Shown here piece after piece: positions 13,928-16,146 of a DNA stretch of 64,000 nucleotides (within the stretch, counting starts at the first letter, position 1; each line of letters starts with the position of its first letter). Made by a program: the position numbers and the translations under genes. Source of the DNA: Hyphomonas sp. L-53-1-40 (GTDB lineage Bacteria; Pseudomonadota; Alphaproteobacteria; Caulobacterales; Hyphomonadaceae); the NCBI RefSeq assembly GCF_000682775.1, contig NZ_AWFI01000001.1, forward strand, positions 124,001 to 188,000. Direction: 5' to 3'. The notes below the pieces were generated by a model. The model had not been told where the DNA came from. It searched no databases and saw only the letters and a program-made list of their open reading frames with translations.

Positions 13928-14590
13928 ATGTCCAGTCGTCTACACGCTGCAATGCTCGCAGCAGCTCTCGCCACGTCCACACTGTCCGCTTGCTCGACTG
14001 CCTATTATGGCGCGATGGAGCAGTTCGGATATCAAAAGCGCGATCTGCTCGTGTCCAGGGTCAATGATGCAGCCGATGCCCAAGCAGACGCAAAAACGGA
14101 GTTTTCCAATGCGCTGGAAGCCTTCCGGTCGGTCGTGGCGTTTGATGCTGGCGAACTGGAAGCGTCTTACGACTCCCTGAATCGCGCCTATGAACGGTCA
14201 GAGGAGAAGGCGGATCGCGTGCGCGAGCGCATCAAGGACATGAAACAAGTCTCCCGCGACCTGTTTGTGGAATGGCGCAAGGAACTGGAAGAATATTCCG
14301 ATCCGGGCCTGCGCCGGGCCTCGGCCGAGCAATTGGAAGCAACACGTGACCGCTATGCCGTGCTGGTCGAGAAGATGGACCGGGCCGCCGCCTCAATGGA
14401 CCCGGTTCTGGCCGTGTTCAAGGACCGGGTCCTGTTCCTCAAGCACAATCTGAATGCGCGCGCGATCGCGGCGCTGGGGGATGAGACACGTAATATCGAG
14501 ACCGATGTCGCGGCCCTGATTGCGGAGATGGAGCGCTCCATCGCCGAAGCCGATGCTTTCATCCAGGAAATGCAGGCCGGTTCGGTCTAG
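13928..14590 (+). CDS. DUF2959 lipoprotein
   Basis: 220 residues from ATG 13928; a GTG 9 bases upstream is an alternative because AAGGGG lies close to it. Lipobox LSACS after a hydrophobic signal. The mature chain is strongly helical and charged (ERSEEKADRVRERIKDMKQV, ERSIAEADAFIQEMQ), consistent with coiled coils. AYYGAMEQFGYQKRDLLVSRV is the DUF2959 opening. Function unknown; likely outer-membrane-anchored on the periplasmic side. A 10-bp hairpin 29 bases after the stop probably ends the transcript. Confidence 0.85.
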   Translation: MSSRLHAAMLAAALATSTLSACSTAYYGAMEQFGYQKRDLLVSRVNDAADAQADAKTEFSNALEAFRSVVAFDAGELEASYDSLNRAYERSEEKADRVRERIKDMKQVSRDLFVEWRKELEEYSDPGLRRASAEQLEATRDRYAVLVEKMDRAAASMDPVLAVFKDRVLFLKHNLNARAIAALGDETRNIETDVAALIAEMERSIAEADAFIQEMQAGSV

Positions 14591-14618
14591 CGCACTTTCA
14601 ACCGGAAACTTGTTCAGA

Positions 14619-14642
14619 CAATGGGGCCGGATGGCCCCATTG
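14619..14642 (+). terminator. Perfect 10-bp hairpin after DUF2959
   Basis: CAATGGGGCC (14619-14628), loop GGAT, GGCCCCATTG (14633-14642), then TTATAT. A second stem, ATCGTGC (14647-14653) with GCACGAT (14664-14670), and a short CGCC/GGCG stem followed by CTTTTTT (14674-14694) come straight after it. Together they would stop transcription from the left. Confidence 0.7.
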
Positions 14643-14695
14643 TTATATCGTGCTTTGAATGCTGCACGATTGACGCCCGATGAGGCGCTTTTTTG

Positions 14696-14720
14696 GGAAC
14701 CAAATTGGAAACCAACCGTT
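14696..14720 (+). promoter_or_regulatory. EcfG-type general stress promoter
   Basis: GGAAC at 14696-14700, a 16-base spacer, then CGTT at 14717-14720. This is the full consensus for the alphaproteobacterial general stress sigma factor EcfG/SigT. It lies in intergenic DNA, points rightward, sits immediately after the terminator T-run, and is followed by strongly folded sequence, not by a good ORF with a ribosome site. Confidence 0.7.
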
Positions 14721-14726
14721 TGGATC

Positions 14727-14922
14727 ATGTCTCTGGCAGGGGCAAGCTCACCGGAGTCTGCTCATTCCGGTCTCGGCCGGAATCTGGAATTGAGGGGACA
14801 CATGTTTCAATTCCAGGCCTCGAATGCGTTCGGGGTGAGCAGATACCGTCCCGCTCGGGTTCAAATCCTGACATGGCTGCAAGAAATGCCCGCGAAGGCG
14901 TAAAGCTGAGCGGGTCAGCTTT
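14727..14922 (+). ncRNA. Candidate stress-induced structured small RNA
   Basis: Predicted start about 7 bases after the CGTT of the stress promoter. Bases 14757-14844 fold as a nearly gap-free four-way junction: outer stem 14757-14764 with 14836-14843 (8 bp); hairpin A 14765-14770/14777-14782; hairpin B 14784-14793/14807-14816 (10 bp); hairpin C 14818-14824/14829-14835 (one G-U). Only single linker bases separate the arms. A T-arm-like hairpin follows at 14855-14871, and an 8-bp stem AAAGCTGA/TCAGCTTT at 14902-14922 may end it. No known family is recognised. The rest of the gap to 15276 holds another stem, GTCCGGC/GCCGGAC (14929-14971), and no supported gene. Confidence 0.5.
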
Positions 14923-15276
14923 GGCTGTGTCCGGCATATCACCAATGACCGCGATATGGACTGCGCCGGACGACGTGATTTGCACCAGCATCTGCCGCGC
15001 ATCCCTGCGAACATGGCGCACATAGAAGGTCAGCACCACAATCTGCACCCATATCCAGAACCGATGGGTCTGGAGATGGGGCGGCAGATTTCGCAATGTG
15101 GCGAAGGCGTCAGTCATGTGCGCAGTGTAGGCCCGGCCATGGGTGCGTCGGATAAGTTTCTGGTCAGATCAATGGCGACACAGGGGCCGGACTCGTCATG
15201 TGTGGGATAATTCCTCTGGGCAAGGTAGGATAAGGCGGGCTCTGGCGGCTTGCCGGGCTAGAGGGAGGGATAGCTG

Positions 15277-15624: not shown

Positions 15625-15771
15625 GAAACGTTTCACGGCGTTTCAGTTCTTTTCATGGGGTTTCACATGCGGGGGCAGTGTGTGCGCATCGCGTCTCGCT
15701 TGCGCTTCGGGCCTTATTTTCCTTCATTCGATCCTCGATCAAATGCTGCCGCATGGCGGCACCGGGAAGTA

Positions 15772-16146
15772 AGACCAGACGGCCTGTAAGCCGGGTTCTG
15801 TTCGCCGTGTTGCCACGGTCCGGCAGCCATTCCTCTGGGATGCCTGTTGCCAGGCACCTCACGCGACACACCCGGGGCACGGGCGTGAAACAGCCCATAT
15901 GTGCCCCCTATTCGGTCTTGCTCCGGGCGGGGTTTACCGTGCCAGTCCTGTCGCCAGGCCTGCGGTGGGCTCTTACCCCACCCTTTCACCCTTACCTCTC
16001 CCGAGGGGGAGGCGGTTTGCTTTCTGTGGCACTTTCCCTCGGCTCACGCCGGGCGGCCGTTAGCCGTCGCCCTGTTTCCCTGGAGCCCGGACTTTCCTCC
16101 AGTACGCAGTTACCCGCGTACCAGCGGCTGCCCGGCCGTCTGGTCT
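15772..16146 (-). ncRNA. rnpB: RNase P RNA, bacterial type A
   Basis: Read on the minus strand, the RNA starts AGACCAGACGGCC and ends GGCCGTCTGGTCT, giving a perfect 13-bp P1 helix. The universally conserved segments are present in order: GAGGAAAGTCCGGGCTCC, AGGGTGAAAGGGTGGGGTAAG, GAGCCCACCG, and CAGAACCCGGCTTACAGGCC near the 3' end. About 375 nt. It is the catalytic RNA that trims tRNA 5' leaders. A TTATAT element lies 8-13 bases upstream of the 5' end and is a probable -10 box. Confidence 0.97.

Follow-up and report, generated by a model that had tools for sequence, protein, structure and literature searches.

A probable REP doublet inside a genus-restricted Hyphomonas gene and its possible retention as a cloverleaf RNA

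Introduction

What is the gap-free four-way junction that can be folded from positions 14757–14843 of this Hyphomonas DNA, and does it have a life of its own as an RNA? The preliminary description of the window (the whole 64-kb stretch of DNA analysed here) placed it downstream of a stress-sigma promoter in an interval with no good ORF, and knew of no described family with this layout. The question is thus one of origin as well as one of function, and several characterized systems offer points of comparison.

CGTC-type REPs (PMC3733652) have 8-bp stems beginning with an A-T pair and CCA-like tails, with loops of 4 nt in family 1 and a terminal tag that reads CGTC, often TGTC or CCTC. They are described as mostly inverted dimers with a variable spacer and as mostly alphaproteobacterial, with C. 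crescentus named; some lie within ORFs, in-frame, and no dedicated transposase is known for them. REPINs consist of two inverted REPs that together form a long hairpin in which compensatory changes are common, and a legend to a supplementary figure names a less stable clover configuration of the doublets (PMC3116915). Rickettsia palindromic elements are found inside ORFs and are translated in frame (PMC10969869; PMC3733652). The Coxiella RNAs CbsR3, CbsR13, and CbsR16 are described as sRNAs derived from QMITE, a miniature inverted-repeat element lying beside a promoter; they were detected as transcripts, with Northern blots as further evidence for CbsR3 and CbsR13 (PMC5896051). GsrN, finally, has the GGAAC and CGTT boxes of a sigma-T promoter and a C-rich 5′ loop, and its homologs typically lie near the GSR locus, with C. 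crescentus as the exception (PMC5869019). A literature search of our own, too narrow to prove absence in print, found no account of palindromic repeats in Hyphomonadaceae, nothing on REPIN/RAYT systems in Alphaproteobacteria, and only off-topic papers on Hyphomonas small RNAs and sigma factors.

Results

The gap-free four-way junction was borne out by folding and by comparison with shuffled sequences, as was the earlier judgement that its assembly by chance is very unlikely. The MFE of 14757–14844 is −45.6 kcal/mol versus −26.5 ± 3.2 kcal/mol for shuffles, none of 200 being as good, and 14757–14843 has a z of −6.0. All four of the stems that had been proposed are present (Table 1), with lengths slightly different from the original 8, 6, 10, and 7 bp: the outer stem has 7 bp, its eighth pair competing with the first hairpin, and the three hairpins have 8, 10–12, and 8 bp. 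On the loop side of the spacer hairpin lies a G-rich motif, GAGGGGAC (14792–14799), that is invariant in the three ortholog sequences described below. GUCUCU of the leader (14729–14734) may pair with GGGGAC of the spacer loop (14794–14799) to give a pseudoknot; both segments are invariant between the sequences. A scan of the fold against Rfam gave no match at the gathering threshold, and the matches overlapping it at E values up to 10 score far below their family cut-offs. A tRNA or tmRNA, suggested by the T-loop-like stretch GGTTCAAATCC (14859–14869), was considered and rejected, as ARAGORN predicts neither within the window and relatives do not share the stretch.

Table 1. Positions of the features at the locus, numbered along the window
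Feature	Position	Strand	Basis or remark
DUF2959 gene, upstream syntenic marker of the locus	13928–14590	+	
Promoter-like GGAAC-N16-CGTT (EcfG type)	14696–14720	+	pattern, four orthologous loci
Leader of hypothetical plus-strand RNA	14721–14756	+	opposite the conserved minus-strand LPLPET codons and stop codon
130-aa ORF, genus-restricted paralogous family	14725–15117	−	ORF list, single-sequence search, HMM
Predicted 87-nt REP doublet as four-way junction	14757–14843	+	folding, orthologs, model R3
Outer stem of four-way junction	14757–14763/14837–14843	+	folding
First predicted REP unit, 8-bp stem, 4-nt loop	14764–14783 (14764–14771/14776–14783)	+	folding, alignment
Spacer hairpin	14784–14816 (14784–14793/14807–14816)	+	10 bp, up to 12 in MFE
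Second predicted REP unit, inverted, 8-bp stem, 4-nt loop	14817–14836 (14817–14824/14829–14836)	+	

The interval turned out to be neither intergenic nor free of a good ORF. A minus-strand ORF of 130 residues spans the fold, which forms the C-terminal coding part of this ORF just before LPLPET and the stop codon, and the ORF is open in all four orthologous loci. It matches no Pfam family at E ≤ 0.001, and its AlphaFold model is poor (pLDDT 61). A single-sequence search with the ORF returned 32 matches in 9 of 42 genomes of the genus, five of them in the window genome and four to six in each of G019, G024, G025, and G063; an HMM of the N-terminal part found seven in the window genome and, among 200 genomes of the order, matches in 15, each of which belongs to the genus of the window and has at most 12. 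Thirty-two family members have weak matches only, with a best E value of 0.01 in Pfam and 0.12 in NCBIfam. A contig scan with the minus-strand ORF gave one weak Chloroflexi match, which was left unused. The family loci are 14725–15117, L019–L048, L094–L096, L100, L101, L103, and L147–L166.

Most members of the family end in LP-P-[DE]T, with a variable stretch directly before it. This C-terminal slot is occupied by palindromic repeats that differ by species, and by none in some. In G036, six of the eleven family matches carry a copy of the element in the slot. Eight family genes of G018 were read by eye, and six of them have another palindromic repeat there, whereas in G006 none was seen by eye in the seven family genes read of nine, and that genome gives no match to the covariance model R1 described below. 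The second repeat kind of G018 (L154, L155, L156, L159, L160, and L161) encodes peptides like PLTPTPLPWERG. Beyond the gene, a stretch like that at 14660–14695 also follows the stop codon in many members of the family that lie in unrelated places; read with the gene, it runs GAAAA..., then AAGCGCC-TTCAC-GGGCG... and GTGCTGG. The sharing of this stretch suggests that the duplicated unit may be larger than the ORF.

Relatives of the element are found well outside this gene family. R1, a covariance model of seven distinct in-gene sequences (three ortholog sequences and four from G012 and G016, all 87 nt; alignment A2), at E ≤ 0.01 has matches in 32 of the 42 genomes of the genus, with up to 70 strand-hits in one, and at E ≤ 1e-4 in 119 of the 200 from the order; these figures are to be read with rough model E values, genome counts made under stricter filters, two matches for the two strands of each palindrome, and a model that may also catch unrelated palindromes of similar layout. 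Because circularity had to be avoided, a further model, R3, was built from dispersed copies only (two from G024 and one each from G013, G018, G052, G186, and G205), with the window locus excluded. R3, in which the P3 pairs are slightly out of register, recovers 14757–14843 to the base from the 64-kb window with an E value of 1.3e-10, the next best match having 0.56.

The common form of the repeat is an inverted pair, TCCGCTCATCCCGGC...GCCGGGATGAGCGGA, in which the arms are themselves small palindromes and the spacer is variable. Of 38 copies folded, all 75–90 nt in length and 35 of them outside the window locus, 34 have the long hairpin as their MFE structure, and the clover is found only in the three sequences of the window locus and in L102. 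Most of the dispersed copies shown have the stem, loop, and tail described for CGTC-type REPs. The first unit of the window fits in stem and loop and has CTG as its tail, and in the second the first A-T pair is replaced by a G-U. The tag differs from the described one, reading GCTC and not CGTC in the window and its relatives, and the window orthologs lack the long hairpin between units, the clover alone remaining. Given the R3 match and the published REP anatomy, the clover form of a REP doublet is the best reading of the four-way junction, so the layout does have a described counterpart, and it is very probable from these comparisons that the fold is a REP doublet by origin.

In the window genome, the window element is the sole strong copy. 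The next (C12:66386–66452, E value 0.004) lies in another gene of the family, and a REP-core pattern has 4 matches in this genome versus 1 for the control. A plasmid search with the repeat consensus gave no match. At L092, L093, and L097, REP doublets follow one another at intervals of about 2 kb, and their flanks match in G036 and G018 and are similar in G024. A RAYT-driven REPIN was considered and rejected, as copy number and Y1 transposase matches do not go together across the 42 genus genomes. Y1 matches occur in nine of these, four of them over the Pfam cut-off; they are present in all four genomes with the window locus and in G023 and G024 (15 and 11 element matches), whereas the six genomes richest in the element (22–70 matches) have none. 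Inspection of the nine Y1 loci found no element in any; the one in the window genome, at C12:542292, has no element near.

Homologues of 87 nt stand at the orthologous locus in G025, G063, and G024, and the element is identical in G025 and G063, so that the four ortholog loci (window, L020, L021, and L022) provide three distinct element sequences. A search of 105 family genomes with model R2, likewise under stricter filters, added no ortholog: no locus other than these four exceeded 130 bits, and the next best match had 69. Covariation, which the preliminary description had named as a check, spoke in favour of the fold when compared with shuffles. In alignment A2, 90.5% of 231 cells are paired and 10 pairs have two-sided changes, with 0 of 500 shuffles as high in covariation; in the orthologs alone, 98 of 99 cells are paired and four pairs have two-sided changes, with 2 of 500 shuffles as high in covariation. 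A neutral simulation given the observed numbers of stem changes, and starting from the majority consensus of the three sequences as ancestor, predicts 9.4–12.2 broken cells versus the one observed, and for each of the three kappa values (transition biases) used, not one of 20,000 runs had as few.

The way in which pairs vary also distinguishes the strands. Read on the plus strand, the weak pairs of the orthologs comprise 10 G-U cells, spread over eight pair positions, one C-C, and no A-C, counted as cells and positions rather than as independent events, and MFE values are −45.0, −49.0, and −43.8 kcal/mol for the plus strand versus −36.4, −41.3, and −36.5 for the minus strand. The presence of G-U without A-C means that the plus strand is the better folded one in the orthologs. 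The four G012 and G016 copies have seven G-U and nine A-C cells, and six G036 copies have no G-U and five A-C cells (27 pairs). With no such lean toward the plus strand in paralogous copies, the lean is specific to the ortholog group of the window.

With the near-identical L020/L021 set apart, divergence across the locus in the four other pairs amounts to 14–28% in the element, 21–45% in the coding N-terminal part, and 44–56% in the 25 bases after the element; L020 and L021 differ at 0 of 87, 13 of 249, and 3 of 25 positions, respectively. Synonymous divergence is 0.17 in the element versus 0.42 in the N-terminal part between the window and L020, and 0.38 versus 0.59 between the window and L022. 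The upstream DUF2959 gene diverges by 12–18% in full-length pairs, in a comparison in which the intergenic part of L020 is misaligned, with another gene in between. This is about the divergence of the element or below it, so by the standard of the locus the conservation of the element is unexceptional: the element is better kept than its own gene and not better than its DUF2959 neighbour. Further along from the minus-strand ORF lies a class A RNase P RNA (15771–16143, minus strand; Rfam).

The promoter-like boxes are exact, as had been described, with GGAAC at 14696–14700 and CGTT at 14717–14720. GGAAC is kept at the N16 spacing in all four orthologous loci, and the −10 box is CGTT in the window and L022 and AGTT in L020 and L021. 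Between the window and its three relatives, the −35 segment has 0–2 differences in 10 positions, never inside GGAAC, the −10 box has 0–1 in 4, and the spacer differs by 44–56%. Near the gene stop, GGAAC-N15-18-NGTT occurs in 4 of 4 orthologs and in 0 of 52 other family loci; of these, L033 and L045 are short of most or all of the sequence at that place, and in L029 the stop is displaced. In L022, the aligned site is accompanied by another GGAAC-N16-CGTT at the stop of the DUF2959 gene. Genome-wide, the pattern is not enriched, with 49 matches versus 79 for a reversed-pattern control, and therefore carries no weight by itself. Two NepR matches lie on contigs C15 and C16, and the presence of NepR makes EcfG control at least possible. 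Three of the 49 pattern matches fall within a 7-kb stretch around the stronger NepR match, a stretch picked after they had been seen. The GGAAC and CGTT boxes, exact in the window and L022 and with AGTT in L020 and L021, may be a point of likeness to the sigma-T promoter of GsrN. The earlier statement that no likeness to GsrN is visible otherwise stands: the fold has no C-rich loop, and it is on C1 and not on the NepR contigs.

A promoter and terminator scan of 14590–15120 returned 0 promoters and 0 terminators. The 8-bp stem at 14902–14922 that had been put forward as a possible 3′ end is present in the window, but the 3′-end part of that proposal is not supported: as judged by eye, the pairing at those columns is not kept in the three other loci, where other hairpins can form nearby. 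The leader differs by 17–33% between orthologs, a conservation that may come, at least in part, from the conserved LPLPET codons and stop that lie opposite. The idea that the leader is a trans-antisense sequence to six other family mRNAs of the genome was dropped, since between 7 and 99 of 200 plain shuffles did equally well.

Discussion

The structure is homologous to dispersed doublets, it is positioned within a gene, and its pairing has persisted through substitutions in four species. We consider it probable that the fold is under selection. Our preferred explanation, to which we assign an even chance, is that a diverged REP doublet in the C-terminal end of the minus-strand gene has been kept as a plus-strand cloverleaf RNA in one ortholog group. 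A REP doublet would have been vertically inherited in the C-terminal slot of a multicopy, genus-restricted gene. In the ortholog group, the two units would then have drifted apart, with loss of the long hairpin and retention of each local hairpin, and the element would no longer serve as a repeat. A plus-strand RNA would best explain why the local hairpins have been retained, and whether the element functions as such an RNA is, judged from sequence, a finely balanced matter. The fact that there are only three distinct orthologs weighs against the preferred explanation. So do the missing plus-strand lean of paralogous copies, the low divergence of the DUF2959 neighbour, the unenriched promoter pattern, the AGTT box of two loci, the second promoter-like site of L022, the empty terminator scan, and a leader whose conservation may be owed to the last codons of the gene.

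We predict that this RNA would start near 14727, on the evidence of the GGAAC and CGTT boxes, opposite the stop codon of the minus-strand gene. It would have about 30 bases of leader followed by the cloverleaf, with GAGGGGAC in the spacer loop, and it would be antisense to the gene end. Once folded, it could cap and protect the 5′ end of an antisense transcript, or it could be a small RNA of high stability; it may work by antisense or, via the GAGGGGAC loop, as a small RNA. That EcfG controls the putative RNA is a tentative proposal. The more elaborate scenario, in which a selfish REP doublet caught between an EcfG-type promoter and a gene 3′ end gave up its long hairpin and became a general-stress cloverleaf sRNA with a conserved G-rich loop, we regard as unlikely. 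The Coxiella QMITE-derived sRNAs provide a precedent, with the difference that they were seen as transcripts whereas the window element is known from sequence.

Two-sided changes are also produced by template-switch correction of quasi-palindromes, a process that should give Watson-Crick pairs. It is possible, if doubtful, that the element is a passive relic, an intragenic REP doublet without a function of its own in a dispensable C-terminal stretch, its complementarity maintained by template-switch repair. The variety of palindromic repeats in the slot from species to species, and their absence in others, would suit such a relic, as would the small number of distinct orthologs, the unenriched promoter pattern, and the empty terminator scan. 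However, pairing is kept far beyond the neutral simulation, the orthologs have G-U and no A-C cells where template-switch correction should leave Watson-Crick pairs, and the element is less diverged than the coding and 3′ flanks, with synonymous change depressed. In-frame intragenic REPs are on record (PMC3733652), and the relic would resemble the Rickettsia elements: the window element is likewise in-frame in an ORF and absent from some homologs (G006), but, unlike them, the insertions here repeatedly involve one C-terminal slot of one paralogous family.

The structure could instead act in the minus-strand mRNA as a 3′-end stabilizer or decay block, a role already proposed for REPs that lie close to gene ends. 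Coding-region 3′ ends are a usual place for REPs, and strong palindromes occur in the same slot of several paralogs, yet the minus strand of the orthologs folds 7–9 kcal/mol worse and the plus-strand G-U pairs become A-C mismatches on it, which makes this role rather improbable. A stress-controlled sRNA of a wholly new family unrelated to repeats is in turn very hard to sustain. The exact promoter boxes, the presence of NepR, the three pattern matches near the stronger NepR match (in a 7-kb stretch chosen post hoc), and the absence of an Rfam family would all be in keeping with it, but the independent model R3 indicates homology to dispersed doublets. A non-repeat origin is thus contradicted by R3, as far as a sequence model can do so, and the putative regulated-RNA part is carried by the preferred explanation of a REP doublet kept as a plus-strand RNA.

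If the plus strand is not transcribed, the locus is a reason for caution, as a multi-stem fold without gaps may prove, in genomes of this sort, to be a REP doublet. If it is transcribed, the element would be a REP doublet turned structured RNA with the intermediate stages visible, from dispersed copies that form a long hairpin, through in-gene paralog copies, to the clover-only, strand-biased copy of the ortholog group, and work as RNA by the clover folds of REP doublets would become testable.
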